From a virus, in the IMG/VR virus record IMGVR_UViG_3300030060_004387, positions 652-45,608 of that record: DNA of 44,957 nt; one strand, given 5' to 3'. Below, in pieces: positions 24,693 to 43,390 of this stretch. Each line of letters begins with the position of its first letter. The stretch's first letter is position 1. The position numbers were made by a program, and so were the translations under genes. Below the pieces are notes generated by a model. The model had not been told where the DNA came from and ran no database searches. It saw only the letters and a program-made list of their open reading frames with translations.

Positions 24693-25925
24693 ATGGCAGA
24701 ATCAACAACAACACCAGACTATAGTTTAGACGCAGCTACGTTAAGAGCTGTTAGTGGCGCAAGCGTTGGCGGAGACGCTATGGACGCGTATATTAAGTCA
24801 ACACAAGTAGGTAATGTAGGCTCCGCGGTAACCGCTGGTGCAGAAGCTTTTTATCAAGCAAGAGCAGATAAAGAGGCTAGGAACGAGGCTGCCGCTCAGG
24901 TAAAAATTTCTGCTGCAGCAAAGTGGGATGAAGCCTTTGACGCTATGGGTGAGAGAGGTGCGTGGGCGTCTCCTGAGCTACATGATCAGTTTATGCAGAT
25001 GGAAGAGAAATATAAAAAAGATTATTTAGAAGCTGTAAGAACTGGCGATAAGAAAGAGCAATCTAGAATATTAAAAGAGCAGGGCGCTAGATCTAACTCT
25101 CTTCAGAGTTGGAAAAGCACCATGGAAACCGCGGCTGAAATAAACAAAGAGTATGGTTGGGGAGAAATATTAAACGGAGATGATGAAGAAGCTATAGCCA
25201 ACAGAGGTATATTAGAGGCTATAGCTAAAAATGATGGTACTGCTATCGCTGTTGTTGACGCTGACACTGGTGAAATAGGGTTTACGGTTGGTGAAGTTAT
25301 TACAGATCCAGAAACAGGCGAGCGTATACCCCAAGGTAGAGTTTGGACTAGAAGGGAGATAGATGAAATGGTTGCTACTGGTACAGCGCCTGTGGTTAGG
25401 CAAGAAAGCTTCATGACCACGAGTATCGAACAACAAAACCTTGGTATTCAAGGCAAGCCGTTTCAAAAGCAAGCGCAGCATTACAGTAACTTAAAAGGTA
25501 TAAAGAAAGAATTAAGAACTAATCCAAAGGCAACTACGTCTATACTTAGAGACGTATGGGCTGGGGAGACATCTTTAGAAGCTGATTTGCGAGAAGCTAT
25601 AGCTACGCCTGGGGCTGGCATACAATTTAGCGTTACACTACCTGAAGGCTCTACTCTTGATCAAAATAACGACGGAGTTTTAACTGAAGCTGATCTAAGC
25701 GCTGATAGCGTAGACGTAATCATTAGTGCTTTAGAAGCAGATCCAGATTTGCTTTCTGAAGTTGCTGCTGACTGGATGACCATGAAGCAAGAAATCTCTC
25801 ACTCTGGTGGTTTAGAAGAATATAATAAAAACAAGTCGCTTACAATGTTTTCGAACATGACAAAGGAGCAAAAAAACGCATTGACATCTGATCAACTTCT
25901 TAAATTATTAATGGGACAAAGATGA
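24693..25925 (+). CDS. Probable internal virion (ejection) protein
   Basis: 410 residues, soluble, mostly helical and acidic, starting MAESTTTPDYSLDAATLRAV. The frame is open to an ATG at 24663, but 24693 lies one base after the upstream stop region and removes a low-complexity overlap. It contains SAVTAGAEAFYQARADKEAR near the N-terminus and a DxNxDGxLTxxD-like loop (DQNNDGVLTEAD) at about residues 327-338 that could bind calcium. No lytic domain was recognised. It lies between the small internal protein and the 3472-aa giant with a 4-nt overlap (ATGA) at its end, so a shared role in DNA ejection is likely. Confidence 0.6.
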   Translation: MAESTTTPDYSLDAATLRAVSGASVGGDAMDAYIKSTQVGNVGSAVTAGAEAFYQARADKEARNEAAAQVKISAAAKWDEAFDAMGERGAWASPELHDQFMQMEEKYKKDYLEAVRTGDKKEQSRILKEQGARSNSLQSWKSTMETAAEINKEYGWGEILNGDDEEAIANRGILEAIAKNDGTAIAVVDADTGEIGFTVGEVITDPETGERIPQGRVWTRREIDEMVATGTAPVVRQESFMTTSIEQQNLGIQGKPFQKQAQHYSNLKGIKKELRTNPKATTSILRDVWAGETSLEADLREAIATPGAGIQFSVTLPEGSTLDQNNDGVLTEADLSADSVDVIISALEADPDLLSEVAADWMTMKQEISHSGGLEEYNKNKSLTMFSNMTKEQKNALTSDQLLKLLMGQR

Positions 25926-28900
25926 GTTTAGAACAGGAGATAAAGGCTATCATACTAGAAATGTCTCAGCAACCTGGCGTTACTGAGGAACAGATTATAG
26001 AAGCTGTTGAACTTTATAGGCTAAAAAAAGCTGAGGAAAGCCAGGGGTCTACTTCAGGTTCATCTGTATTAAGCCCAGTTGGTCAACTAACGAATGAGTT
26101 AAATACTTATGCAGCGGCTGACAATATAGTAGGTGGGGTTGAGTTAGGTGTTCTCGGTTATGAAGACAATCAAGAGGACACAACAACAGGGCTTTTTGGA
26201 ACTCCGATAAGAAATACTTTTGATATTTCGCGAAACATACAGATGCCAGATCTTTCTTTGGAAACAGACGCCTTATCTACCACTGGAGTTATTGATTTTG
26301 ATCAATCGCTACTTAACTTAAGCTTAGATGTACCAGAGACAACAACTTCACGAGACGTTGAATATACAGAAGAAAACGATCCGATTGGCTTAGCTGCCAG
26401 CTTTGGTATAGACACGGGCACCCCTGAGTATCAGAGAGCGATGGAACTTGCAGATCTTTTACGTAAAGCGGAAGAAGAGCGCTTAAACGGCCCTACGCCT
26501 CGCCAGATTTCTGAAGAAGAGCAAAGGTTGATGGACTTAATAATGTACGGAGAAGAGCCGGTAGAAGAAGAGTTGTCAGAAGAAGAGAAAGAAAAACAGG
26601 ATCGTCTAGCTGAAATGAGACAGGGTTGGGAGCAGGGTTATAGTTCAGAAGAAAATCTTACTAGAGCTAAGAACGCTGAGGAACCTGAAATGCAGGGTAT
26701 TAACAACTGGTTTGATGAAAACCGCGAGCGATTGACTAACATTGAACTTGATAAACCTGTGGTGCCACCTAACGCGACAGCTGAAGATCTTAAAAAGATT
26801 CAAGAGGACATGCAAGAGCAGTGGTCTAGCAAGGTAGAGGAGTTGTATAATCAAGAGGTCGTAGAGCCTTATAACGAATCTATCAAGATATATCGAGACG
26901 CTGTAGCTAAAAAAGAAAAGAAAAAAGCTAGAGATGTTGTAACTACGGTTATTAACAACAATATTGGGGGATGGTGGTCTGAAGAAAATATCGCAAAAAA
27001 CCTTAAAAGCGTTCTTCCTGTTGAATACAAAATAGAGGAAGGTATTGGAGAAGACTCTACCGGTAGTGGTACGCGCCTTAGTGTTAACAACATAACTATA
27101 ACTAATTCTCACGGCGTAGCAAGGAATTTTAATCTTAGAAGTAGTACAGAATTTGCCAAAGAGTTATTTGCGTTTTTAGAGGAAGATCCTACTTTAACTG
27201 ATGAAAAAGGAGAGGAGTGGGTACAGCAAAAAGAGTCGTTTGAAAGAATTTGGTTAGACAATTATTTTGGAGATGGCGGAAGCGGTGCACATGCTTTTAT
27301 GAAAGACCCAAAGCGTATTGCAGATATACAAGCTGGGATTGTTACAATAGACGATGCTATTAAAGAAATAAAGGGTCGCTTGGGCACTGAAGACGCTTGG
27401 ACTTTGTTTGGTGAAAAAGTTAGAAAGGCTTTTCCTGCTTTATCTGATTCAGATATAGATCACATTATTAAAGAAAGATATCACGCTGAAATTGAGGCTT
27501 ACCAACACAAAGCCTTTGACAATCTTAATGCTGGCTTTGATGAAAGATTACTACAAGGAGACATAACGCTTACCGAGCTCCATCCTGGTATGGCTGTTGG
27601 TGAGTATGATCCAACTTTAGACAGAGGAGAAACTAATAAACCGGGTGGAACAGTACATTTGTATCGAGCTAAAGAAGGGCGAACTGTAAGTATAAAAAAC
27701 GCAGAGCAATTCTTTAAAACATACACAGTTTCTCAGATTAATACTATTGAAGATCCTTTAATGAGAGAGTTAGCTAGTATTAACGTGCAATTAGATAATC
27801 AAGAAAACCTGCGTTATTCTGAGGTTCAATTTTTTCTAAACAGAAGAAATCAACTCCTACAGCAAATTAAAGAGGAAAGTGGAGAATATGAGATGCTGTT
27901 TGATTTAACTACAGGACAATTAATTAGACCAGTTGGTAAAGACAACCCATTTGTTACTGAAAATACTGAAGACGTTACTGGGGAAATACAACAGCAAGAA
28001 AAAGAATTAAGAGCAGAATTTGCAAATAATCCAAACTTAACGCCAAGAGATTTGGCTAGAGAGGCTTATGAAAAAAACGCTAAGGCTTTAGCTGTTTTAA
28101 ACGCAAAGTTAAACGAAGTTGTAACATATGCGGTTGATTACCCAAAACGAGAGGGTTTTATTGGTTACCCTGGATTTGAAGGTACTAAAGAAATGACTTT
28201 GCGCGAAGCGTTAATTAAGTCTGAGCGCTCTGATAGTGAGGGACGGTTTTTTACGGGAAACCCAACAGAGTGGCATCACACTTTTCCTGAAGACGATGTT
28301 GCAGAGAGAAATATATTGAGGCAGCAAATGCGAGACCTTAAAATAAAGCAAGAGGCATTAAAAAGAATATATCTTTTAAACGAAGATGTTATATCTATAG
28401 AAAAGAACAACGTCCAAAACTACCTTAAGTTAGCTGTTAAAAGCTTGCCTTTTATAAATACTCTAGCTATTTCTGACTTCCAAAAAGCTGCTCAGGATGA
28501 TATTATCTATACAGAAAGAGAAGTTATAGATGAGTATATTCCTACTTTAACTAACGCTGGCATTGAAGTTACAGGAGGTCAAAAAGCTTATATTGATCGA
28601 AGTTTTGGCGAAACATTTGGTGAAGGGCTTGCTTCTAGCGCAGGTATACTTGTTGAGTTTGCTATAGCAAACAAACTTACAGCTGCGTTAAGAGGTGCTG
28701 CGTTTTTTGCCCGTGGTACTAAAAGCCTAGACACGATACTTAAAGCGCATAAAGCTAAGAGATATTGGAACGGAAAACAAGCTTTAACAACAGCTCAAGC
28801 AACCGCAGCGGCAGCAAATAACGGTTTACCTTTGTCAACGTATTTAGCTATAAATGGTTTTAACGCAACTAAAGGTCCTAGCTTAGCTTCTAGAGTTGGA

Positions 28901-31900
28901 GTTTTTCTAACTGAAGCTTCTATTGAAGGAGCGAAGTTTGCTTCTTTACCCTCTTCTGAGGGTAGAAGAGGAGAGGCTTTTGCTACTGGTTTTGGGTTTG
29001 GTGGTGCAACGCAGATCTTATCACCAATGCTAGGTACTATAAGCGCAAACACGTTTAGCCCAGCCTTTCAAAACACTAGATTTGGGGCTATGATGGCTAA
29101 CAACGCTCCAAGGTTAGAAAAAATATATAACTTAGGGTTTAAAGGACCTTTAAGCTTTACGGTTGGTAGTGAGGTTGGAGAGCTTGGACTTGCTTTAACT
29201 GACGACTTAATGGGTTACGAAGAGTTTAGCGGCATGATAGAAGAGCATTATGGCGATGGAACACGTAACTTACAACGCTGGGCAAACAACTGGGCTATGG
29301 GTACTGCTTTTGGTTTTACGCATAAAGCTGCTTACAAAAAAGCCGGTACAATAGAAAGTTTAAGAGAAGCTAAAAAAGAAGCAGAAGACGCTATCTTTGA
29401 AAAACGAAACAACTACGTTATTAGAAATAAAAAAACAGGTGAAGTTTTTGAAGCATCTAGTAAGAAAAACTACCAGACAAAAGATTTCGAGATAATTGAA
29501 AGACCTGGTATGAGGAAGTGGCGTACGAAGAAAAAGAATGGAGAACCTATGACTCAAGAGTATCTCTTGGACATGTATCAGTTAAGTCAAAACCTAGGGC
29601 TACAATTAAGAAGAAGTGAAGATGGTTTAGATTTAATGGATAGAACTATCGGTGCTTCAAAATTAAAGACTAGAACTTTAGATCAAGTTAAGCACTATAA
29701 AGATAAAGGCGCTAACGTTGAAGTTGAGTATGGTAGTCCTGACACGTATCTAATACGAGATAAAAGAACCGGCAAAATAAGAGAGGTTAATAAAAAGCCT
29801 AGTGGATCAGGCGCTGCTAACTACGAGATCTTAATGGAACCTATGGGTAATAGAAACGCAGAGGTTTACTATAAAGATAAAGACGGTAATATAATGGACG
29901 TCGGCTTAATGGGTAAAAAAGTTAAAGGCTCAACAGTAGTAATAAGATATAACGTAGAAAAATTTGCGGAAGGATATGCTCCTCACGAGCTAGGCCACTC
30001 AGGTATGGAAATACTATTTGGCACTAACGCTAGATTTAAAAGTGAGTTTGTAATCGACATGATGAAGATAGCCAAGCAAATTAAACTTGGCGTAGGTCCA
30101 AATGGAGAGCTACCGCTTTTTGATAATCTCTATGATCAAATAATAGAGCAAAACCGTCAGTTTGATGTAGAAAAAACACCATGGGAAGCCGCTAAAGCAA
30201 AAGACTGGGAGCTATTTAGCCATATAGCTGAGCACTTATCTAAGCCAGAAAACCTAAGAGAGCTAAGAAAGGCAAATGCGTTTGGTAAAATTAAAAATTT
30301 AGTTGAGCGAACTGTAGGAAAAGAATTAAACCAAAAGTATAATCTTACAAAAGAGGCGGATATAGTAGAGTTTTTCGGTGACTACATTCAAAGCATTAAT
30401 AGAGGCACAAATAGTTTAAAAGTACTTGAGCATTTGCAAGATGTTATAGCTGAGCCAAGTAGCCCTGAAGCTAGAGAAATGGAAAAACTGTTAAACGAGC
30501 AGGGTATACATTTTACTGAAACAAGTAGATTAGCTTCAGAGGCAAAAAGAAAAAAAGACCTTATTAAAGAGAATGTTGATTTATTCAACAATAAGCCAGA
30601 AGGTTATGAGGCTAAAATGCAGGAAAATATAAAAGCTATTAGATCAATAGATGATCTCTTGGTAATAAATAGACCTGCGCAAAACGAATCAGATGACGCT
30701 AGAAAAGACAGGGTAAATAAAATACACGCTGGTCACAAAGACGTTATATTCGATAAAACTATTAACTCTGAGTCGCGAGAAGGTCAACGACAAGGTGAAG
30801 CTATTGATGCTATAATAAGTTCTTACAGAGGCAAAACTATAGCGGTGGCAAAAAGCCAAGGTAGATTTGAAACACCTACGTTTGAAGACATGTCAAAGGA
30901 AGCAAAAGAAGATTTTGCATGGGACATTACTAGACCAGAGTTGTTAAAGCATTTAGATGCTTTTAATAGAAAGTTTAGAGAGACAGATGGGAAAGAAGGT
31001 ATTGAAAATGATGATCTTGATGCTTATTTAAACTCATATGTTGAGAGAAAACTAGGTACAGCTTTAGAGAAGCCAGGTATTCAAAAAAAGGAATTTACTG
31101 GTACTACAACAGATTTAAGACCGGGTCAAGAGCCAGTATACACTCCTTCAGAAATGAAGCTAAATAACAAGACTGATGCTAGACTTAAAATAGATATAAG
31201 AGAAAGACTTACTGACAATGCCCCTGAAGGAAGAGAGTCGCAAATAAAAAAGGGTATTAAAGAGCATGGCGAGTTTGTTAAAAATTATATAGAAACAACG
31301 TCTGACGCGCCTACTTCATACCGTGATTTAAAAAATATAAAAACTCCAAAAGAAATAGTTGACAAAGTATTTGGTAAGAATACTGCAGAACGCGTTGAAA
31401 CTATAGGTAGAACGCTAGATATAGCTAAAAAATCTGCATTACCAGAAGGAACATTATCTACTAGAACTGGTAACGTAGAACTAGAAGGTAAAACTATTGG
31501 TGTAGCTAATACTCTACAAACAATTAATATAGCTAAGAAAGGTCAACCAGCAAACTACAAAGAGGTTTTATACGGTACTCCTAAAAAATTCGCAGAGTTT
31601 GTGTCTAAAGAGACTGGTAGACTTACAGCTGAAGCAGATCCTACTGGTCAAGGTAATACACCTAAAGAATTACTTAAACTAAATAGAGCTGAAACACTTA
31701 AGAGATTGGGTATAAAAGAGGTTGAACTTGGTGGTGGTGAAGTTAGATACGATATTGACAATACGTTAGCTAAGGAATACGCTAGTGAACCTGGTTCTAA
31801 GAGCGAGAAGGCTATTGCGCGAAACATAGAAGGTATTAGAAAGAACTACATGGAGGAAGTAGTTAGAGGTATGACGTACCAGGTTGCCATGGAAAACTTG

Positions 31901-34900
31901 CCTGCTGTGTCTCAAAAGCTAGGTATTGCTACAGAGATTTTAGCTAATCAGATTAGCGCGGGTAAAGCTAGACTTGCTAGTAAAACTTTAGAGATGAAAG
32001 ATTTTACTGAGCAAATGGAGTTTTTAGATCAAATCGAAAGTAAAGAGTTTAAAGATCTGTACGAAAAAGCTGTTGCTGAAGGACAAGAAAAAGCTTTTGA
32101 GCACGCTATGATAACTCACTTTGCAAACAACCCTATTGAAAATATAAGCAAGGCAGACATCAAAAACATTGCAAAGCAACTTGAAGCGCAGTTTGTATTT
32201 ACAACCATGACGCCTAAGAGGGCTATTGAAGCGTCTACGAAAGCTGTTGCGTACCCAAAAAGCTTGCAATCGATAGAGGCTAAGTATGGATTTGAATCTA
32301 TTGAAACGGTAAATCTGTATGATAGTATAGAGGGTATTAGAGAGGGACAAGCCGCTTTTACTATGGAAGGTGGTATTATAGAAACTTTAACTCGAACTAA
32401 GGGTAAAGGAGCGTTTGAAGCTTTAATAAAAGAAGGTATAAGTAAAGGAGCTGGACTCGGAACGTATAGAGCAGAAAGAAGAAACGAAAAAGGCGATTTA
32501 GTTGACGTTGGCGGAACTATTATTAAAACTGCAGAGCAAAATATGATTGAGGGTAATACTCAGTTTAGAAGTAGTAATAGATTCGCTTTGTTTGAAACAG
32601 CTGCTAAAGCGCAAGAGGCTGCTGATGGTGTGTACGCTAGACTAGAGTCTGAAGGTGTTAAGCTAAAAGACTACGAAGGATCTTCACGTGCAAATTCAGA
32701 CGCGGTTGGTAAGAAGAAAAGAGTATTAGAAGGAGTTACAAAAAAAGACGGAGCGTGGGATTTAGAAGCCCGCGAAGAATTTGATAGGATAGGCGAAGAA
32801 AATAAAAAAGCTTTGTTTGATGGTAAAGGAAAGTCATCTGTAGTAGAGGTAATGAAAGACATGTACGTTAATGGCGACATAACATACCGTCAAGTTAGGC
32901 AGATCGTTGAAGGGCAGGGAGGTCCTATGGAAGGCTTAATTAAAAAATCAGCTTCACTAGCCGTGCTACCTGAAATGAGTAGAGCAGATATAGAGGCTAA
33001 ATACGGAAAGAACTGGGTGCTAGAACACACTACTCCAGCTCAGTATGTGAAAGCTAGAATATATGATTACATATTGTCTGGAGGTAAAGCGCAGCAAGCT
33101 AAAGCCTTAGAACTCACTCTTAGAGATTATCATACTACTCTTATACCAGAGTCGCTAGATACAATGGTAAATAAAATATTAAAAACTGATTTACCATCGT
33201 TCCACGTGCCAGGTATGGATCCTATAGAATCTAGGTATTATATGGCTAACCATAAATCTCCTTTTGATTTATCACTGGTTAACTATAGAAACGGCAAAGT
33301 CTATAGCAAAACAGGTTTATCTGCTGCTGAAGTGTCTAAAAGAGGTGCTATGCTTAGAGAGTCTTACGCAGAAATGATAAGCCCTCGTTTAGCATCAAAA
33401 AATTTAGAGCCTACTCGCATGCTAGAGCAAATGGAAACTATGAAGAAGGCGGTTGCTAATTCTAGAAATCCTCGCGCTAAGAAGAAAGGTATGAGCACGT
33501 TTGATTTTGACGAGACCTTAATTGTAGATGGAGAAAATTTTGTTGTAGCAACTAAAGACGGTAAGCGCATAGAGATTAGTAGCGAACAGTGGCCTATAGA
33601 AGGTCCTAAGTACGCTGAACAAGGGTATGAATTTGATTTTTCTGACTTTGCGAACGTAAGAGGTGGTGCCGATGGACCACTGCTACAGAAAATGAGAAAT
33701 CAAATAAGCAAGTATGGATCGAACAATGTATTTGTGTTAACAGCTAGACAGCAGGCATCGGCTGAACCGATACATAATTGGCTTAGAAGCAAAGGCATAG
33801 ATATACCTTTAGAAAATATTACTGGCTTAGGTAAGAGCGAAGGCGCGGCAAAGGCTCAGTGGATGTTAGAAAAGTTTGCTGAAGGTTATAACGATATGTA
33901 CTTTGTTGACGACGCTTTGCCTAACGTTGAAGCTGTTAAAGAAGTGCTAAGCCAACTTGATGTTAAGTCTAACGTTCAACAAGCACGTAGACTAGCCTCA
34001 AAAGACATGAACTTGGAGTTTAATCAAATGATTGAGCGTAAAACTGGCATTGGTTACCAAAAGATGTTTAGCGGAGCTAAAGGTAAAATGCTAGGTAAGC
34101 GTAGGTATACTCAGTCAATTGTGGCACCTGGCGCTCAAGACTTTATGGGTCTTATGCAAAACTTCATGGGTAGAGGTAAACAAGGTAATGCTGATAGAGC
34201 TTTCTTTAAGAAAAACTTAGTAGATCCTTTTGCAAGAGCTACAAAAGAAATGAATGAAGCTAGACAAAGATCTTCTGAAGATCTTAAGGCTTTATATAAA
34301 GATATACCTAGTGTTAAAAGAAAATTAAACAAACGACTACCTGGATCTGCTTTTACGTATGATCAAGCTATTAGGACTTACTTATGGGAGAAAAACGGAT
34401 TTAATATTCCTGATCTATCGATGAGAGATTTAAAGTCTCTGACTGATATTGTTAACAAAGACGTTGAATTACGTAACTTTGCCGAGCAATTAAATATGAT
34501 AGGTAAAGGCACGTGGGTTGAGCCATCTGCTAATTGGATTGGTGAAACTATTGTGTCAGACCTGTTTAACTTGAATAACAAAGCTAGAAGAGCTGAACAC
34601 CTACAAGAGTGGCAGGAAAATATCGACATTATATTCTCGCCAACTAATCTAAATAAAATTGAGGCTACTCAAGGTAGTAAATTTAGAGAAGCTCTTGAAG
34701 ATATTATATATAGAATGAAGACGGGTTCTAATAGACCCACAGGTGCTAATAGGTTAACTAATCAGTTTAACAACTGGATCAACGGTTCTGTTGGAGCTAC
34801 AATGTTCTTAAACATGAGATCTGCAATGCTTCAAACTATATCTGCTACTAACTATATCAATTGGTCGTTTAACAATCCAGTTGCTGCGGCAAAAGCGTTT

Positions 34901-36340
34901 GGTAACCAAAAACAATATTGGTCAGACTTTTCTATGCTATGGAACTCGCCAATGCTTAAGCAGAGGCGTGCTGGTTTAGAATATAACGTACAAGAAGCTG
35001 AGCTTGCTGCGGCTATGGCAGGTCAGAAAAACAAGGCTAAAGCTGCGGTAGCGTGGTTAATAAAGAAAGGTTTTACACCAACGCAGATCGCAGATAGTTT
35101 CGCTATTGCGTCCGGCGGCGCTACGCATTTCCGTAACAATGTTAGGCGCCTCATGAAGACAGGTTTGTCTAAAGCTGAAGCTGAACAGCAAGCGTTTTTA
35201 GAATTCCAAGAGTTAACAGAAACTAATCAGCAATCATCGAGAGCAGATCTTATATCTCAACAACAAGCTTCAGGTTTAGGTAGAACTATATTAGCTTGGT
35301 CTAATACGCCAATGCAATATATGCGTATACAAGAAAAGGCGGCTAGAGATATTGTAAACGGTAGAGGCGATCTTAAAAGTAATATGTCTAAGATAGCTTA
35401 CTACGGAGTTATTCAAAGTGTAATATTCTCTTCATTACAAAACGCTTTGTTTAGATGGGGACTAGAGGAAGAAGATGAAAACAACGAAGCTGATAATAAA
35501 GATCTCAATTCAGCTATTGATAGAACAGTGAACACAGTTATTGACTCTCAACTTAGAGGTACCGGTGTTCTTGGAGCTGCGCTAAGTGCTATACGTAACA
35601 CGGTACTCGAGTTTGAAAAGCAAGAGGCGAAAGCTTATGACGATAGTTTTTTGAGCTCTCCCGATCACAGTAGAACTGTTCTTCAGCTAACTAGTTTTTC
35701 TCCTGTTATAAGTTCTAAGTTACGTAAACTATACTCAGCAGGTAATGAATGGAACTACAATAGAGAGGCTATAAGCGAGATGGGTTTTGATATTGATAAT
35801 CCTGCTATACACGCTGGCGCAAACGTTATAGAAGCTACAACTAATTTACCTATTGCTAGACTTGTGCAGAAAGTGGATAACATACAGGGTATGCTAGACA
35901 GCAATAACGAAAATTGGCAACGCGTAGCGTTATTAATGGGTTACCCTAAATGGCAGCTTGGTATTGAAGATACGGAAGTTGAAGAAGCTAAACAAAGAGG
36001 TAGAGATAAGATTAAAGCTATAAAAGATGCTGAAAGAGAAATAGAAAAACAACAAAAAGAAGTAGTAAAAGCAGATGAAGAGCTTGCGGAGATAGAAGAT
36101 AATATACTTGACCAAGACGAGGAGAGAGAACAAGGCGCAGAAGAAGTTCAATGTGCTGCAGTAAGTAGATCTGGTAAGCGATGTTCAAATATGGCTTTAC
36201 CTGGTAAAAACTTTTGCACAATACATCAGCAGGTTGCTCAACAAGAAGAAGAAGTGCAATGCTCGCATATAAAGAAAGACGGCAAACAGTGTAAAATGAA
36301 AACAAAAAATAAATCAGGAAAATGTTACTATCACGATTAA
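25922..36340 (+). CDS. Giant multidomain virion/ejection protein with HELGH, HAD-like and zinc-knuckle domains
   Basis: 3472 residues, probably packaged and ejected with the DNA. In order: an acidic, helical N-terminus; hydrophobic Ala/Gly-rich segments at about residues 895-930 and 1020-1045; a zinc-protease-like motif at His1355-Glu1356-x-x-His1359 (APHELGHSGMEILF); a long helical middle; a HAD-type domain with DFDET (Asp2528, Asp2530), VLTAR (Thr2607) and FVDD (Asp2663-Asp2664); an amphipathic region at about 2950-3200 with NQQSSRADLISQQQASGLGR, of the kind seen in giant phage ejection proteins; and a charged coil followed by two C-x9-C-x10-C-x2-H motifs (Cys3411-His3435, Cys3447-His3471). 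Its size is close to the N4 virion RNA polymerase, but I found no single-subunit polymerase motifs. Confidence 0.7.
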   Translation: MSLEQEIKAIILEMSQQPGVTEEQIIEAVELYRLKKAEESQGSTSGSSVLSPVGQLTNELNTYAAADNIVGGVELGVLGYEDNQEDTTTGLFGTPIRNTFDISRNIQMPDLSLETDALSTTGVIDFDQSLLNLSLDVPETTTSRDVEYTEENDPIGLAASFGIDTGTPEYQRAMELADLLRKAEEERLNGPTPRQISEEEQRLMDLIMYGEEPVEEELSEEEKEKQDRLAEMRQGWEQGYSSEENLTRAKNAEEPEMQGINNWFDENRERLTNIELDKPVVPPNATAEDLKKIQEDMQEQWSSKVEELYNQEVVEPYNESIKIYRDAVAKKEKKKARDVVTTVINNNIGGWWSEENIAKNLKSVLPVEYKIEEGIGEDSTGSGTRLSVNNITITNSHGVARNFNLRSSTEFAKELFAFLEEDPTLTDEKGEEWVQQKESFERIWLDNYFGDGGSGAHAFMKDPKRIADIQAGIVTIDDAIKEIKGRLGTEDAWTLFGEKVRKAFPALSDSDIDHIIKERYHAEIEAYQHKAFDNLNAGFDERLLQGDITLTELHPGMAVGEYDPTLDRGETNKPGGTVHLYRAKEGRTVSIKNAEQFFKTYTVSQINTIEDPLMRELASINVQLDNQENLRYSEVQFFLNRRNQLLQQIKEESGEYEMLFDLTTGQLIRPVGKDNPFVTENTEDVTGEIQQQEKELRAEFANNPNLTPRDLAREAYEKNAKALAVLNAKLNEVVTYAVDYPKREGFIGYPGFEGTKEMTLREALIKSERSDSEGRFFTGNPTEWHHTFPEDDVAERNILRQQMRDLKIKQEALKRIYLLNEDVISIEKNNVQNYLKLAVKSLPFINTLAISDFQKAAQDDIIYTEREVIDEYIPTLTNAGIEVTGGQKAYIDRSFGETFGEGLASSAGILVEFAIANKLTAALRGAAFFARGTKSLDTILKAHKAKRYWNGKQALTTAQATAAAANNGLPLSTYLAINGFNATKGPSLASRVGVFLTEASIEGAKFASLPSSEGRRGEAFATGFGFGGATQILSPMLGTISANTFSPAFQNTRFGAMMANNAPRLEKIYNLGFKGPLSFTVGSEVGELGLALTDDLMGYEEFSGMIEEHYGDGTRNLQRWANNWAMGTAFGFTHKAAYKKAGTIESLREAKKEAEDAIFEKRNNYVIRNKKTGEVFEASSKKNYQTKDFEIIERPGMRKWRTKKKNGEPMTQEYLLDMYQLSQNLGLQLRRSEDGLDLMDRTIGASKLKTRTLDQVKHYKDKGANVEVEYGSPDTYLIRDKRTGKIREVNKKPSGSGAANYEILMEPMGNRNAEVYYKDKDGNIMDVGLMGKKVKGSTVVIRYNVEKFAEGYAPHELGHSGMEILFGTNARFKSEFVIDMMKIAKQIKLGVGPNGELPLFDNLYDQIIEQNRQFDVEKTPWEAAKAKDWELFSHIAEHLSKPENLRELRKANAFGKIKNLVERTVGKELNQKYNLTKEADIVEFFGDYIQSINRGTNSLKVLEHLQDVIAEPSSPEAREMEKLLNEQGIHFTETSRLASEAKRKKDLIKENVDLFNNKPEGYEAKMQENIKAIRSIDDLLVINRPAQNESDDARKDRVNKIHAGHKDVIFDKTINSESREGQRQGEAIDAIISSYRGKTIAVAKSQGRFETPTFEDMSKEAKEDFAWDITRPELLKHLDAFNRKFRETDGKEGIENDDLDAYLNSYVERKLGTALEKPGIQKKEFTGTTTDLRPGQEPVYTPSEMKLNNKTDARLKIDIRERLTDNAPEGRESQIKKGIKEHGEFVKNYIETTSDAPTSYRDLKNIKTPKEIVDKVFGKNTAERVETIGRTLDIAKKSALPEGTLSTRTGNVELEGKTIGVANTLQTINIAKKGQPANYKEVLYGTPKKFAEFVSKETGRLTAEADPTGQGNTPKELLKLNRAETLKRLGIKEVELGGGEVRYDIDNTLAKEYASEPGSKSEKAIARNIEGIRKNYMEEVVRGMTYQVAMENLPAVSQKLGIATEILANQISAGKARLASKTLEMKDFTEQMEFLDQIESKEFKDLYEKAVAEGQEKAFEHAMITHFANNPIENISKADIKNIAKQLEAQFVFTTMTPKRAIEASTKAVAYPKSLQSIEAKYGFESIETVNLYDSIEGIREGQAAFTMEGGIIETLTRTKGKGAFEALIKEGISKGAGLGTYRAERRNEKGDLVDVGGTIIKTAEQNMIEGNTQFRSSNRFALFETAAKAQEAADGVYARLESEGVKLKDYEGSSRANSDAVGKKKRVLEGVTKKDGAWDLEAREEFDRIGEENKKALFDGKGKSSVVEVMKDMYVNGDITYRQVRQIVEGQGGPMEGLIKKSASLAVLPEMSRADIEAKYGKNWVLEHTTPAQYVKARIYDYILSGGKAQQAKALELTLRDYHTTLIPESLDTMVNKILKTDLPSFHVPGMDPIESRYYMANHKSPFDLSLVNYRNGKVYSKTGLSAAEVSKRGAMLRESYAEMISPRLASKNLEPTRMLEQMETMKKAVANSRNPRAKKKGMSTFDFDETLIVDGENFVVATKDGKRIEISSEQWPIEGPKYAEQGYEFDFSDFANVRGGADGPLLQKMRNQISKYGSNNVFVLTARQQASAEPIHNWLRSKGIDIPLENITGLGKSEGAAKAQWMLEKFAEGYNDMYFVDDALPNVEAVKEVLSQLDVKSNVQQARRLASKDMNLEFNQMIERKTGIGYQKMFSGAKGKMLGKRRYTQSIVAPGAQDFMGLMQNFMGRGKQGNADRAFFKKNLVDPFARATKEMNEARQRSSEDLKALYKDIPSVKRKLNKRLPGSAFTYDQAIRTYLWEKNGFNIPDLSMRDLKSLTDIVNKDVELRNFAEQLNMIGKGTWVEPSANWIGETIVSDLFNLNNKARRAEHLQEWQENIDIIFSPTNLNKIEATQGSKFREALEDIIYRMKTGSNRPTGANRLTNQFNNWINGSVGATMFLNMRSAMLQTISATNYINWSFNNPVAAAKAFGNQKQYWSDFSMLWNSPMLKQRRAGLEYNVQEAELAAAMAGQKNKAKAAVAWLIKKGFTPTQIADSFAIASGGATHFRNNVRRLMKTGLSKAEAEQQAFLEFQELTETNQQSSRADLISQQQASGLGRTILAWSNTPMQYMRIQEKAARDIVNGRGDLKSNMSKIAYYGVIQSVIFSSLQNALFRWGLEEEDENNEADNKDLNSAIDRTVNTVIDSQLRGTGVLGAALSAIRNTVLEFEKQEAKAYDDSFLSSPDHSRTVLQLTSFSPVISSKLRKLYSAGNEWNYNREAISEMGFDIDNPAIHAGANVIEATTNLPIARLVQKVDNIQGMLDSNNENWQRVALLMGYPKWQLGIEDTEVEEAKQRGRDKIKAIKDAEREIEKQQKEVVKADEELAEIEDNILDQDEEREQGAEEVQCAAVSRSGKRCSNMALPGKNFCTIHQQVAQQEEEVQCSHIKKDGKQCKMKTKNKSGKCYYHD

Positions 36341-37365
36341 GCTTATTATTAACCTTACTATTTAGCTGTACAGCGATACAAGCACAAGAGCTAAAGAAAG
36401 CGTTTAAGTTTTCTACATTCTATGCAGCTGTTAACGGAGGTAACTCTATATCAGATCAGACTATATATTCTGTTACTGACGGGCTAACTCAGGAGACTAT
36501 AGCAACACCGTTTGATTATAGTTTATCTATGGGTGTTCGTAAGATTGCTAGATTTGGTTACGAGAATAGAGCCAATGCTTTCTATGACGGTACAGAGACA
36601 TCTTACTCTGCTGACGCTAATATAGGTAAGCGTAACGGTATAGAGTTTCTTGGGGAGGTTACATATGAAAGACAGCAAGGCCGGGAGTTCTTCAATCAAC
36701 ACCACTTTTTTCGTTACATCGGAGATAAAGTTATGGCAAAAGTTGAATACCTTGAAGACGGATTTGCAGACATTGAATACTTCGAGGCATCTCAAAGATA
36801 TAGACTTAAGCTCGGTAAGAAGTTTTCTATCCACGCAGGAGTTGCTCAACGTATCTCAGAACCCTATGGATACGATCCACTCGCTGAATGGAAGCTTGCA
36901 AACGGAGATATTCACTACACTTACCTCGCGCTTCAAGAAGGATATACTCACAACCTTACAACTGGAGAATACATGGCTCCAGACGGAACAGTTGTCGCTT
37001 CAAACACTGAGGTCTGGGAAGCAGTCACTATCCCTGAAGTCTTATCTGAATACTCTGCTAGAAAAAGAAATGAACTTGCTCGCCAGTGGAATTACTCAGT
37101 GGTTGCCGGGTTCGACTTCTATCACTTTACAGAGGACTTCTGGTTCCACACTTGGGGAAATGTTATGCCCTACCATTACGACACAGGTGGGGAATATATG
37201 TATCACAACACAGTGGACGGCCAGTGGCTTGACTACTCGGGCGGACTTATTTTCGGGCACAGATTCAACAAACACATTGGAGTTTTTCTTGAAGGTAGAT
37301 ATAACAAATACTGGAATAGGGAATGGTATAACTTTAAGTGTGGTGCAAACTATGTAATCTTCTAA
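36322..37365 (+). CDS. Exported outer-membrane beta-barrel-like protein
   Basis: 347 residues with a signal peptide (MLLSRLSLLLTLLFSCTAIQ, probable cleavage after AIQA). The mature part alternates polar and hydrophobic residues, is rich in Tyr, Trp and Phe (KVMAKVEYLEDGFADIEYFE; YRLKLGKKFSIHAGVAQRIS; HIGVFLEGRYNKYWNREWYN) and ends in Phe, the usual terminal residue of outer-membrane barrels. It would sit in the host outer membrane, not the virion. The ATG lies 19 nt inside the giant gene. Codon use changes sharply near 36640: before it 6 of 7 Ile codons are ATA and 11 of 12 Leu codons are TTA/CTA; after it 0 of 9 Ile are ATA and 12 of 13 Leu are CTT/CTC. Possible roles include superinfection exclusion and altered uptake. 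Confidence 0.65.
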   Translation: MLLSRLSLLLTLLFSCTAIQAQELKKAFKFSTFYAAVNGGNSISDQTIYSVTDGLTQETIATPFDYSLSMGVRKIARFGYENRANAFYDGTETSYSADANIGKRNGIEFLGEVTYERQQGREFFNQHHFFRYIGDKVMAKVEYLEDGFADIEYFEASQRYRLKLGKKFSIHAGVAQRISEPYGYDPLAEWKLANGDIHYTYLALQEGYTHNLTTGEYMAPDGTVVASNTEVWEAVTIPEVLSEYSARKRNELARQWNYSVVAGFDFYHFTEDFWFHTWGNVMPYHYDTGGEYMYHNTVDGQWLDYSGGLIFGHRFNKHIGVFLEGRYNKYWNREWYNFKCGANYVIF

Positions 37366-37653: not shown

Positions 37654-38000
37654 TGGCATTTAAAATGAAATACAAAAACCTCAAAGCGGTTGTTGAGGAA
37701 TTACGAGGTGCAGTTAAAGCACATGGTAAGCAAGCGGATACTATTGAAAAGCATATTGATGATATGGAAGATAGTCCGATCAAAAAAATGCTTACTGAAA
37801 AACAGTCTAAACATATCGATACTAACAAAGACGGTAAGATAACTGGCGCGGATTTTCCTTTGAAGAAGCGTGGGCTGTGGGACAACATACATGCTAAAAG
37901 AAAAAGAATTAAAGAAGGTTCAGGCGAAACAATGAGGAAGCCTGGTGATAAAGGAGCTCCTTCGGCAAAAGACTTAAAAGACTCTCAAACAAAAAAATAA
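37653..38000 (+). CDS. EF-hand-containing small phage protein
   Basis: 115 residues. After an N-terminus that begins MAFKMKYKNLKAVVEELR and a helical region comes one canonical EF-hand loop, residues 56-67 (DTNKDGKITGAD), with Asp56, Asn58, Asp60, Thr64 and Asp67 as calcium ligands (Asp instead of Glu at the last position). The C-terminal part RGLWDNIHAKRKRIKEGSGE, followed by MRKPGDKGAPSAKDLKDSQ, is a motif I associate with many marine phage proteins. Calcium-stabilised capsid decoration or packaging accessory roles are plausible. It overlaps both neighbours by one base. The EF-hand is clear; the function is not. Confidence 0.65.
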   Translation: MAFKMKYKNLKAVVEELRGAVKAHGKQADTIEKHIDDMEDSPIKKMLTEKQSKHIDTNKDGKITGADFPLKKRGLWDNIHAKRKRIKEGSGETMRKPGDKGAPSAKDLKDSQTKK

Positions 38001-38284
38001 TGGCTAAGCAAATAGGTGAGGATACTAAAGTAACGTTTGACCTCAAAACAATAGGCATGGGCGTAGCAGGGTTAGCTGCTCTTATAGGTATGTGGTTTAC
38101 ACTACAAGCAGATATAGCAGAAGCAAAAGAACTACCTGAACCACTACCTCCAGACATTACTCGTATGGAGTTTGATATGAAAGATCAACTAGTGCGTCAG
38201 ACTATTATGACTACACAAGAAGATGTATCTGAGCTCAAGGAAGATCTTGATCGTATTGAAGAAAAAATAGATAAGCTGAACTAA
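38000..38284 (+). CDS. Single-TM coiled-coil protein
   Basis: 94 residues. One membrane helix lies at about residues 18-36 (IGMGVAGLAALIGMWFTL), preceded by a charged N-terminal tail (GEDTKVTFDLKT). It is followed by a Pro/Glu-rich linker (KELPEPLPPDI) and a C-terminal coiled coil (EDVSELKEDLDRIEEKIDKL). Topology resembles spanin-like or holin-accessory proteins, but no lipobox or outer-membrane partner motif was found. It overlaps both neighbours by one base and sits in a run of small membrane or exported proteins. A role in lysis or in the envelope is inferred from topology only. Confidence 0.55.
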   Translation: MAKQIGEDTKVTFDLKTIGMGVAGLAALIGMWFTLQADIAEAKELPEPLPPDITRMEFDMKDQLVRQTIMTTQEDVSELKEDLDRIEEKIDKLN

Positions 38285-38436
38285 TGAAAGAGTTTACGCA
38301 ACACTTCTTTGGTATGTGTGATAGTCATACATGTGATTACCACGGACACCCAAGTATTATATACGCTATAGCTTTTATAGCTATATGCTCTATTAGTAGT
38401 ATTGTAATTAATAAGAAAGCATGGAAGAGACAATGA
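38284..38436 (+). CDS. 50-residue Cys/His-containing single-TM protein
   Basis: A 50-residue frame, MKEFTQHFFGMCDSHTCDYH and on to a membrane helix (IIYAIAFIAICSISSIVI) and a basic end (NKKAWKRQ). The ATG overlaps the upstream stop (TAATG) and the TGA overlaps the next ATG (ATGA), so it fits the operon perfectly despite its small size. The N-terminal C-x4-C with three nearby His (HTCDYHGH) could bind a metal or heme-like group. It lies between a coiled-coil membrane protein and an exported thioredoxin-fold protein. No family was recognised; it may be a membrane partner of one of these. Confidence 0.55.
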   Translation: MKEFTQHFFGMCDSHTCDYHGHPSIIYAIAFIAICSISSIVINKKAWKRQ

Positions 38437-38789
38437 ACTTTAAAACAGTAATAGCATACGTGCTTTTAATGTTATGTATGTTCGCGGCCGGTACGGCGCT
38501 TAGCCAGAACATGTGCAACAGTGATATCTGTGTAGTACAGTTTAACGCTAGCTGGAATCAAAGCAATAGCGTAGATTATCTTGACAAGCTAACTGATTGC
38601 GAGATTATGAATATTAATATTGACGAAGGTACTTACCAGTCTGATTATAAGATCGTAGTAGTACCTACAATCATAGTGTTTAACGGTAAAGAGGTTGAAA
38701 GGTTCCAAGCAAATATAATGATGGAAATGGAAGCTACACGTAAAGATGTGCAAAGTGTAGTTGATGAAATAATATATAGCGATTTTTAA
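38433..38789 (+). CDS. Exported thioredoxin-fold protein lacking the catalytic CxxC
   Basis: 118 residues. A signal peptide (MNFKTVIAYVLLMLCMFAAG, probable cleavage near ALSQ) sends it to the periplasm. The remainder matches a compact thioredoxin fold: CVVQFNASWNQSNSVDYLDK, then INIDEGTYQSDYKIVVVPTI with the cis-Pro at residue 78, then VFNGKEVERF. The active site WCxxC is replaced by Trp41-Asn42-Gln43-Ser44-Asn45, so it cannot do dithiol-disulfide exchange. Such folds can act as chaperones or binding modules (T7 uses host thioredoxin as a processivity factor). I chose the start at 38433 (ATGA overlap); an ATG 12 nt earlier is possible. It is adjacent to the secreted protein gene. Confidence 0.6.
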   Translation: MNFKTVIAYVLLMLCMFAAGTALSQNMCNSDICVVQFNASWNQSNSVDYLDKLTDCEIMNINIDEGTYQSDYKIVVVPTIIVFNGKEVERFQANIMMEMEATRKDVQSVVDEIIYSDF

Positions 38790-41093
38790 ATGAAGAAGTT
38801 AACGTACGTATTTGTAGTAATATTTTGGCTACTAGCAAGTTGTGTATTTTCTCAAGTAGATACTATACCGCCGCCACCTTGTGGTATAACAAATTTACAA
38901 GGTGAGATATCTTGTTTTCCATGGTCGCCTAATCAAGGTGAACTAAGCGTAAACTGGGAGGCGCCACCAGGTTGTCAGCCTGTAGGGTTTCATAGAGGCG
39001 ATGACTTAAATAACTTACAGTTTATACCTTATGGCCCTTGGTTTGGTAATTACTTTTATGGCTATGCACAGTCTACGCCTGTATCTAGTAGTGAGTATTA
39101 CTTTATAGTAGAATCACCTGGCGGTATTATGGACACTCTTATATTAGACAATCCTAACTGTGGGCTTGGTTGTATGGATCCGCTAGCGTCTAACTATAAT
39201 CCATTTGCTGGTATAGAGTCTGAGTTTGAAGAGTCTTGTTTATATGGTAACGTATCTGAGTGCGGTGACACATTAACTCAGAACGTTTATGTAAGCATAA
39301 CCGGTGATACGTTTTCACAGTGGGAAACTAGCTGGGAAATATTAACTACAGACAGCGCGCCTATTGTTTTAGCTAGCGAAGAGCAGGGGTTTTATGAAAC
39401 CGCTGGACTTAATGTAACTACAGAGTATTGTATACCGTTAGGCGTAGAGTTTACATTTAATATATACGACTCGTATGGTGATGGTCTTGCTGGCTCTACT
39501 ACAGGTGGATCAGCTGATGGTGATGTATTAGTTTATACAGAGTGCGGTAACGTTATATACAGCATACTACCGTTTGAAGGACAAAACCCAGACTTCGGTT
39601 ATGAAGCTAATAGCGTGCCTAACTTGCTTAACCCTTGTCTACCAGAAAACCCACCGTTTGGTTGCTTAGACCCTAACTATTTAGAGTTTAACTCTCTTGC
39701 AGAAAACAACGATCAAAGCCAGTGTATAACACCTGCAATACCAGGTTGTATAAACGAAAACGCTTTTAACTATGATTCACTGGCTAACACTATGGACTTA
39801 GTGCCTGAGTGTGAATATACGTTAATGTTGTTTGATGGTGGTGGTGACGGTTGGGATAACTCATACTTAGGTGTAGTGCAAGACGGCGAACCTATTGGTG
39901 CGTTTACATGTACAGATCAAGATGCGTTTTATAATATTACAGTAAGCTCACTAACACATGTTGAGTTTACGTTTTATCCTGTAGAGTTTGGCGGCTTCTT
40001 TGGTCAAGGTGGAACTGTAACAGATATATCGCAAGTAGGATTTAAACTTATTAAGCCTAACGGAGATATTGTATTTGATAAAGGTACTAATCCTTGGCTT
40101 GATCCTGTAGAACCTAATAAAACCTATACGCCATATTTAAGATGTGGTAACTACTGTGAGCCATACTCATATGGTTGCACAGATGAAACAGCGCAGAACT
40201 ATAACCCTGAAGTAAACACAGAAGACGGTAGCTGTTACTACCAAGCTGGTTGTACGCAAGCAGGTTATTTAGAATATTACACACAAGGCTATGAAGCTGA
40301 TTACGATAACGGAGACTGTCAAACGTTAGCAGTATTTGGTTGCATGGACGAAGAAGCATTTAACTATAACCCAGAAGCAAACGTTGATAACGAGGGTTGT
40401 ATACCTGTAGTGTTAGGCTGCATGAACCCACTTGCTTTTAACTATAACCCGGCCGCTAATACCGATGATGATAGCTGTATACCTTTCATCTACGGTTGCA
40501 CGGACGCAACAATGTTTAACTATGATCCGGAAGCTAACGCTGAAGATGGTAGCTGTATTCCTTACATTTATGGCTGTACTGACAGTAGCGCCTTTAATTA
40601 TGATCCAGCTGCTAATACTGACAATGGCTCGTGCGAGGAAGTGGTGGTCGACTGTATGGACCCGCTAGCCTATAACTACAATGAGCTTGCAAACGAACCT
40701 GCAGACAACTGTTTATATGATGCTGTTTGTATTGGTGGACCCGGTGAACCATATTGGTTAAACGATTTGTGTTACGCATGGGTAATTGAAGCAGATCCAT
40801 ATTGCTGTAGCGATGAGTGGGATAACACTTGTCAAGCAACATACGATTATTGCAGTGTAACAGGTATAGAATCCGTGCTAGCTGGTGAAGACTTAGTTGT
40901 CTACCCAAACCCGGTGGGCAATGTGTTAAACATAAATCAAAACGTTGACGTAGACGTGATCGATTCAAATGGACGTATCATAGTATCTAAAACAAATACG
41001 AACGCGATAGACGCGTCCCTATGGCCTCCAGGAATGTATATGGTACGTATTATTTGGAACGGTCGCGTCGTAGTCAATAAAGTTATTAAATGA
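38790..41093 (+). CDS. Secreted T9SS-type surface protein with Cys/Asn-Tyr repeats
   Basis: 767 residues. A signal peptide (MKKLTYVFVVIFWLLASC) precedes a mostly beta region. The LASC could also be a lipobox, though T9SS cargo is normally cut by signal peptidase I. From residue 127 to 645 about ten repeats of G-C-x-D/N-x-x-A-x-x-Y-N-x-x-x-N/A, ending in C, are seen, closest together at 462-645. Next comes a Cys-rich module with DPYCCSDEWDNTCQATYDYC. Residues about 704-767 form a type IX secretion sorting domain (VYPNPVGNVLNINQ, then the usual short beta strands). Such proteins are exported to the cell surface of Bacteroidota, often as adhesins. It ends with a 4-nt overlap with the fibre gene. 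Confidence 0.85.
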   Translation: MKKLTYVFVVIFWLLASCVFSQVDTIPPPPCGITNLQGEISCFPWSPNQGELSVNWEAPPGCQPVGFHRGDDLNNLQFIPYGPWFGNYFYGYAQSTPVSSSEYYFIVESPGGIMDTLILDNPNCGLGCMDPLASNYNPFAGIESEFEESCLYGNVSECGDTLTQNVYVSITGDTFSQWETSWEILTTDSAPIVLASEEQGFYETAGLNVTTEYCIPLGVEFTFNIYDSYGDGLAGSTTGGSADGDVLVYTECGNVIYSILPFEGQNPDFGYEANSVPNLLNPCLPENPPFGCLDPNYLEFNSLAENNDQSQCITPAIPGCINENAFNYDSLANTMDLVPECEYTLMLFDGGGDGWDNSYLGVVQDGEPIGAFTCTDQDAFYNITVSSLTHVEFTFYPVEFGGFFGQGGTVTDISQVGFKLIKPNGDIVFDKGTNPWLDPVEPNKTYTPYLRCGNYCEPYSYGCTDETAQNYNPEVNTEDGSCYYQAGCTQAGYLEYYTQGYEADYDNGDCQTLAVFGCMDEEAFNYNPEANVDNEGCIPVVLGCMNPLAFNYNPAANTDDDSCIPFIYGCTDATMFNYDPEANAEDGSCIPYIYGCTDSSAFNYDPAANTDNGSCEEVVVDCMDPLAYNYNELANEPADNCLYDAVCIGGPGEPYWLNDLCYAWVIEADPYCCSDEWDNTCQATYDYCSVTGIESVLAGEDLVVYPNPVGNVLNINQNVDVDVIDSNGRIIVSKTNTNAIDASLWPPGMYMVRIIWNGRVVVNKVIK
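39168..40721 (+). repeat. About ten diverged Cys/Asn-Tyr protein repeats in the T9SS protein
   Basis: In the protein these read G-C-x-D-x-x-A-x-N-Y-N-P-x-A-N-x-D-x-x-S-C in their best copies (for example GCTDSSAFNYDPAANTDNGS). Copies start at about residue 127, and six of them follow each other in the last 550 nt. Spacing and sequence vary, so the DNA itself is only weakly repetitive. Confidence 0.75.
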
Positions 41094-42626: not shown

Positions 42627-42929
42627 ATGCAATACGGATTATATCACATAACATCGGCAACAACAACAGTGCTTATACCTAAAAACGGCACTAGAGGTTT
42701 GGTTAATAGTATACGTATATCTAATCAACACGCTAGTGATGTTGTTACCTTAGATTTATATTTAGATGACGACACAAATCAATCTTACTTTTTTAAAAAC
42801 TTAAGGCTGTATCCTGGTACTAGCGTGTTTCTTGATGAAAATGATGACGTTTCGTTTGATAACTCGGTCTTAGGTTTAAAGCTAACCACAGCAGGTAGTG
42901 GATTACCTGTGTCAGTAATTATAAGATAA
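42627..42929 (+). CDS. Small fibre-associated protein
   Basis: 100 residues, all-beta, starting MQYGLYHITSATTTVLIPKN. The pattern is GLVNSIRISNQHASDVVTLD, then LYLDDDTNQSYFFKNLRL, YPGTSVFLDENDDVSFDNSV and LGLKLTTAGSGLPVSVIIR, a compact jelly-roll-like unit. I recall such proteins next to fibre genes in marine phages, with no known function. No signal peptide or catalytic residues were seen. It is 1 nt from the upstream gene and overlaps the next ATG by one base (TAATG). A fibre cap or adaptor role is inferred from neighbours. Confidence 0.55.
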   Translation: MQYGLYHITSATTTVLIPKNGTRGLVNSIRISNQHASDVVTLDLYLDDDTNQSYFFKNLRLYPGTSVFLDENDDVSFDNSVLGLKLTTAGSGLPVSVIIR

Positions 42930-43390
42930 TGGATAAAATAAGTAAACATATAAGCTACAAAGAAGCTACACGTAGTAACACGGCGTTGCGTAGAGGTATA
43001 GAAAACATACCCGATGTAGAAGAGTTAGAAAACATGAAGCTTATAGCTGAAAAAGTTTTTGAACCACTGCGTAAGCACGTTGGAGGACCTATTAAGATTA
43101 ATAGTTTTTACAGATCGCCTGAGCTAAATGTAGCTATAGGTGGTAGTAAAAAATCTCAGCACTGCAAAGGCCAAGCAATAGACTTAGATGATACATACGG
43201 ACATAGGAGTAACGCAGCTATGTTTCAATGGATGCGCTATCATTTAGATTACGATCAAATGATATGGGAATTTGGCGACGATAAAAACCCAGCGTGGGTG
43301 CATATAAGTTATGTATCAGAAGACGAGAACAGGCATAGGTGCTTACGAGCCGTCAAGAAAAACGGTAAAACACATTACGAATTAATGTAA
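42929..43390 (+). CDS. M15-type peptidoglycan peptidase (endolysin candidate)
   Basis: 153 residues forming a single Peptidase_M15 (VanY/D-Ala-D-Ala carboxypeptidase-like) domain. The zinc-site signature SxHxxGxAxD is seen as SQHCKGQAIDLD with His78 and Asp85, and WVHIS gives His125. The chain starts with a typical YKEATRSNTALRRG segment, followed by RSPELNVAIGG. The enzyme would cut peptide cross-links in peptidoglycan at lysis. There is no signal peptide, so it needs a holin; candidates lie at 672 and 1816, 40 kb away. It is the last gene of the long + strand operon, followed directly by a bidirectional terminator. Confidence 0.85.
   Translation: MDKISKHISYKEATRSNTALRRGIENIPDVEELENMKLIAEKVFEPLRKHVGGPIKINSFYRSPELNVAIGGSKKSQHCKGQAIDLDDTYGHRSNAAMFQWMRYHLDYDQMIWEFGDDKNPAWVHISYVSEDENRHRCLRAVKKNGKTHYELM

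Follow-up and report, generated by a model that had tools for sequence, protein, structure and literature searches.

The window analyzed here, a 44,957-nucleotide stretch of viral DNA (positions 652 to 45,608 of IMG/VR record IMGVR_UViG_3300030060_004387), carries a gene for a small thioredoxin-fold protein, here called Trx, that is predicted to be exported (38421..38789, plus strand). The open reading frame was verified at 38433-38789, where a preliminary description had placed it, and would yield 118 amino acids from the ATG at 38433. Another in-frame ATG lies upstream at 38421 (MEET-MNFK), and since most close relatives keep this upstream methionine, translation probably starts there, giving a product of 122 amino acids. 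The N-terminus contains a hydrophobic stretch that ends, in most relatives, with a G/S/A-Q site. Judged by eye, this pattern points to a Sec signal peptide (38421..38504, plus strand) with likely cleavage before Gln25 (TALS/QNMC), in agreement with the earlier view of Trx as an exported protein. The predicted signal peptide changes faster than the mature part, which comprises 94 residues (38505..38786, plus strand).

Three neighboring genes on the same strand accompany Trx. Immediately downstream (38790..41093) lies the gene for a secreted protein of 767 residues with GCTD-type repeats and 38 cysteines, whose type A sorting domain for the type IX secretion system (T9SS; 40899..41090, plus strand) matches both TIGR04183 (44.7 bits, cut-off 23) and PF18962 (E 1.5e-10, 41.6 bits against a cut-off of 27). 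Upstream are genes for a 94-residue protein with a single transmembrane segment and, as its sequence pattern predicts, a coiled coil (38000..38284), and for an exported 347-residue protein (36322..37365) that, again judging by sequence pattern, is a putative outer-membrane beta-barrel. The barrel family, 111 members of which were aligned, gave no useful match in Pfam (29 members), NCBIfam (3 members) or PDB profiles. An M15 peptidase endolysin gene is found nearby (42929..43390, plus strand; PF08291, E 1.9e-15; phrog_894 endolysin).

Several other features of the window deserve mention. A 50-residue open reading frame between the coiled-coil and Trx genes (38284-38436), seen in 4 of 130 loci, encodes one transmembrane segment and a Cys/His-rich head (MCDSHTCDYHGH). 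A 3472-residue protein (25922-36340) has two short C-terminal Cys/His motifs (CAAVSRSGKRCSNMALPGKNFCTIH and CSHIKKDGKQCKMKTKNKSGKCYYH) resembling zinc-binding tails. At 1816-2208, there is a holin-like gene with three transmembrane segments, which scores slightly under the cut-off for PF11351 (22.7 bits); a holin-like gene family adjoins the Trx gene module in other phages.

Fold, active-site positions and cysteines

The preliminary description had recognized a well-kept thioredoxin fold, and the motifs on which it relied are all present, with FNASW at positions 37-41 and VVVPTIIVFNG, including Pro78, at positions 75-85. Structure prediction agrees with this assignment. AlphaFold modeling of the mature 94 residues with 71 homologs in the alignment gave a pLDDT of 90 and a pTM of 0.83; a model from a shallow alignment of 19 sequences (pLDDT 50) was uninformative and set aside. 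The predicted structure follows the strand and helix order of thioredoxins, with the central beta-alpha-beta and beta-beta-alpha elements in place, but lacks the strand and helix with which classical thioredoxin begins. Its top Foldseek matches in the PDB are nearly all thioredoxins (probability 1.00, TM-score mostly 0.55-0.70), and a profile built from 21 family members likewise matches PDB thioredoxins (E 8e-8). As a single sequence, the Trx of the window stays under the cut-offs of the Pfam family Thioredoxin PF00085 (15.6 bits against 23.5) and of TIGR01068 (19.0 bits against 96.8). As modeled, Trx has a thioredoxin fold that is ordinary as a fold; it shares with thioredoxin the cis-Pro-Thr motif and its best PDB and profile matches, but differs in its predicted export, its truncated N-terminal part, its scores under the family cut-offs and, above all, the residues at its active site.

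In place of WCxxC, the protein carries W41-N42-Q-S-N45 (38553..38567, plus strand), as had been pointed out before. Asparagine occupies both catalytic positions in 174 of 176 distinct relatives aligned, reaching down to 37% identity, and none of the 176 contains the CxxC motif that had been proposed as a sign of sequence error. Because the NxxN pattern is kept so widely and CxxC never appears, the replacement is neither chance nor a sequencing error, and a one-off change is likewise ruled out. The earlier search patterns included CVVEFNA and could have introduced an ascertainment bias, which was countered by a scan with patterns from the C-terminal part; recruiting Trx genes via the barrel gene, as a second control, gave the same outcome at the active site. 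For a thioredoxin, it is unusual that asparagine has become fixed at the two catalytic positions. Among module-linked relatives, the only clear departure from NxxN is found in L319:10402-10755 (APFSGTQCEY), which has a new cysteine near the site.

Several other positions are fully conserved. Pro78, which precedes the third core strand, is found in all 176 aligned sequences, and the cis-Pro78-Thr79 loop (38664..38669, plus strand), Glu87, Arg90 and Gln107 are all invariant. For pairs with estimable dS, the dN/dS ratio of the mature domain is about 0.01-0.08, with several pairs saturated at synonymous sites. The mature domain is thus under strong purifying selection.

The mature protein of the window has three cysteines, none of them at the active site: Cys28 (38514..38516), Cys33 (38529..38531) and Cys56 (38598..38600), all on the plus strand. 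Cys28 is present in 99 of 176 relatives. Overall, three cysteines occur in 96 relatives, two in 44, one in 30, none in four and four in two, and Cys56 is present in 136 of the 137 relatives that have Cys33 (Fisher test without correction for relatedness, p 6e-9). This co-occurrence suggests that Cys33 and Cys56 may serve as a structural disulfide, an arrangement that is plausible because their positions, which we take to correspond to I23 and L53 in the register of E. coli thioredoxin, sit on neighboring parallel strands. By contrast, a shared thiol redox chemistry is ruled out by the 34 relatives with at most one cysteine, and the family, as far as its aligned members indicate, has no thiol redox function in common.

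Distribution of the family and its gene module

IMG/VR scans with a progressively widened query returned 29, 279, 356 and then at least 548 Trx relatives. They are carried by uncultured phages that form a large group with ties to flavobacterial podoviruses and whose nearest cultured relatives by terminase infect Flavobacterium, Cellulophaga, Tenacibaculum and Maribacter. No match to the Trx of the window (E up to 1), or to its coiled-coil and barrel partners, turned up in 50,697 annotated phage records, and a divergent Trx used as query hit nothing but ordinary phage thioredoxins, matched along a part of its sequence. The BFVD contains unnamed viral relatives with 30-34% identity, and our literature search found no paper on phage-encoded, exported, redox-dead thioredoxins. 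Trx thus belongs to a large protein family, with at least 548 viral loci, that has no named function in the libraries searched; what is new here is a module-bound, phage-encoded thioredoxin family with fixed NxxN.

When 84,980 species genomes were scanned twice, the family was detected on three contigs of metagenome-assembled genomes (MAGs) only, which are probably phage contigs binned with bacteria. Among 148 genomes from the order of the Flavobacteriales MAG, Trx was found solely on the phage-like contig of that MAG. With three probable phage contigs as its only occurrences in the 84,980 genomes, a host origin of Trx was rejected. The contigs L272 (in a Maricaulis MAG) and L273 (in a Nitrosopelagicus MAG) are probably phage contigs that were assigned by mistake to unrelated bacterial and archaeal MAGs. 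Contig 3300030330_003594 contains two non-identical Trx copies (L129 and L137), and a homolog in L029 (G008:33004-33285) has one in-frame TAA near its C-terminus, reflecting truncation or recoding.

Clustering of 130 distinct loci revealed four linked genes, labeled 0 (Trx), 1 (the putative barrel of approximately 347 residues), 2 (the T9SS-tagged, Cys-rich protein) and 3 (the 94-residue coiled coil). Among 79 loci flanked by 4 kb or more in both directions, gene 2 is present in all 79 and genes 1 and 3 in 77 each, so that the co-occurrence of Trx with the gene found downstream of it in the window extends across all adequately flanked loci. The gene orders at 98 loci (2-1-3-0 in 63, 1-3-0-2 in 24 and 3-0-2-1 in 11) are rotations of a single order. 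A reciprocal search starting from the barrel recovered Trx in 68 of 80 loci, the coiled coil in all of these 68, and relatives of gene 2 in 68 of the 80, the remaining loci being short. Of the 12 barrel loci without a nearby Trx, one has Trx elsewhere in the record and the other 11 are fragments of 15.9-46 kb, most of which carry the module at a contig end.

The tightest pair within the module is formed by the coiled-coil and Trx genes. The coiled-coil gene is the nearest or next-nearest gene upstream of Trx in 116 loci (the immediate neighbor in 106), with a median gap of 3 nucleotides. The position of Trx upstream of a disulfide-rich secreted protein, as reported for the window, is borne out there by the adjacency of the two genes, the 38 cysteines and the TIGR04183 match, but gene 2, although close to Trx almost without exception, lies directly downstream of it in 34 loci only and more commonly upstream. 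In the clade formed by L056, L061, L064 and L068, the T9SS-type protein has a degenerate tail (ITDILGRP...FFIYKDGTVEKKFIK) rather than a type A domain of the YPNP type.

A divergent version of the module is found on L362, a phage-like contig of 64.6 kb in a Maricaulis MAG. Here, the coiled-coil, Trx and barrel genes are contiguous and followed by genes for an M15-type endolysin and a holin-like protein. The Trx of L362 is 29% identical, has TxxN at the active site and lacks CxxC. No T9SS sorting domain was detected in the whole L362 assembly, although a tail may have escaped recognition. Since this phage keeps the trio without a detected T9SS domain, coiled coil, Trx and barrel may represent the conserved core of the module, as suggested by this one contig.

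Possible roles in the host envelope

We lean towards the view that the phages encode an envelope module in which Trx acts as a periplasmic adaptor without catalytic function. This reading draws on its fold, the family-wide loss of the catalytic cysteines, purifying selection on the mature domain and the co-conservation with three partner genes. We infer that, after Sec export, the domain would hold a partner peptide without forming a disulfide, gripping it with the old substrate groove, whose conserved residues at the former active site (N38, N42, N45, cis-P78-T79 and A93-N/D94) would provide the binding surface. The partner would most likely be the inner-membrane coiled-coil protein or the presumed barrel, so that Trx could bridge the inner and outer membranes within a module made late in infection, although the linkage of the phage genes may have its origin in common timing and not in a complex. 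A good precedent by analogy, with no homology claimed, is TraF of the F plasmid, a periplasmic thioredoxin-fold protein without CxxC that is part of an envelope machine, the F-type type IV secretion system, with Cys-rich and coiled-coil partners (PMC7555446). Unlike TraF and TrbC, Trx is phage-encoded and consists of a single short domain, and it shows no significant sequence match to either protein (TrbC_Ftype profile, E 0.009, below cut-off).

The preliminary description had instead proposed that Trx serves as a chaperone or anchor for the downstream protein. A dedicated chaperone, escort or anchor that promotes the folding or type IX passage of the Cys-rich protein would fit with the abutting of the two genes in the window (38789, then 38790), their joint presence in 79 of 79 loci and the fact that the T9SS signal is real. 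It would also have a precedent in ERp29, a PDI-type protein that is redox-inactive and escorts secreted clients (PMC7506106). Trx resembles such redox-inactive PDI relatives, which among the Foldseek matches also include TMX2 and Wind, in a thioredoxin fold serving binding or escort rather than redox chemistry, but, in contrast to ERp29 and Wind, it lacks a C-terminal D domain, is encoded by a phage and would reside in the bacterial periplasm. However, the T9SS-barrel-coiled coil-Trx order (63 of 98 loci) is more frequent than one with the T9SS gene directly downstream of Trx, Trx has a closer partner in the coiled-coil gene, and L362 maintains its trio without a detectable T9SS sorting domain. 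Because of this variable order, the closer coiled coil and the situation in L362, a component of an envelope module is better supported than a dedicated chaperone or anchor for the downstream protein, which we consider unlikely. The general direction of the earlier interpretation, a non-redox envelope protein with a T9SS neighbor, therefore stands, but the downstream protein as its client is too narrow a reading.

Rather less probable still is a function as a lysis accessory, in which coiled coil, Trx and barrel act together in a spanin-like manner to break the outer membrane. The coiled-coil protein resembles an inner-membrane spanin in having one N-terminal transmembrane segment, a higher K/R content before this segment and a predicted periplasmic coiled coil. 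In the place taken by an outer-membrane lipoprotein in spanin systems, the module offers a putative barrel. In addition, 47 of 80 loci have a holin, M15 or amidase gene in the vicinity of the module, the L362 trio precedes endolysin and holin genes, and an amidase endolysin gene follows Trx in L274. Yet no curated spanin matched above chance level, and 33 of 80 loci have none of the three lysis gene clusters within range. Moreover, this scenario leaves the near-constant T9SS protein unexplained. Although the catalytic cysteines are lost, the residues of the substrate groove (cis-Pro-Thr, RFQA strand) are strongly conserved, which would also be compatible with a decoy. By binding the partners of a thioredoxin-fold enzyme or secretion component in the host periplasm, Trx would then block this host protein, for example to exclude superinfecting phages. 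A free decoy would not need to be locked to the coiled-coil and barrel genes, and since the gene module is tight, an assembled complex is preferable; we therefore regard a decoy as very improbable. Hardly credible, finally, is a redox enzyme whose cysteines have moved to other positions (C28-x4-C33 or C33/C56). While C28, C33 and C56 are common and the latter two co-occur, this possibility was rejected because of the relatives with one or no cysteine, which are otherwise conserved, among them L274, with one cysteine and an intact module.

If Trx indeed acts as an adaptor, candidate purposes of the finished module are surface display via the host T9SS, disruption of the outer membrane at lysis or the exclusion of other phages. 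The T9SS gene favors surface display with the help of the host, whereas the neighboring holin and endolysin genes favor lysis. As a speculative though not far-fetched possibility, marine Bacteroidota phages may encode an envelope-spanning apparatus of their own, composed of an inner-membrane coiled coil, a redox-dead thioredoxin-fold linker and an outer-membrane barrel. Coupled to the type IX system of the host, this apparatus would display a large, Cys-rich protein of the phage at the surface of the infected cell before lysis. Individual aspects of this scenario have parallels in known systems. Host barrels of the PorP/SprF family, which shuttle type B T9SS cargo, are similarly encoded next to genes for T9SS-secreted surface proteins (PMC12618676), but the phage barrel has no PorP/SprF profile match, and its putative cargo has a type A tail, which normally takes the PorV route. 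Phage-encoded cargo with T9SS type A sorting domains has been described for the cryoconite 'Cryophage', although this cargo consists of enzymes and a PA14 protein, and the paper mentions no thioredoxin (PMC7468147).

Trx and its partners mark a conserved module that uncultured flavophage-related phages apparently use in the host envelope, raising the testable question of how such phages affect or exploit the envelope of Bacteroidota and the type IX secretion system within it. Additional exported proteins are encoded near the module in L096 (8351-9283, minus strand), L050 (13917-15116) and L093 (9286-11040, minus strand); two of these bear type B T9SS signals (CHU_C), and another is a pappalysin-like metallopeptidase of family M43.
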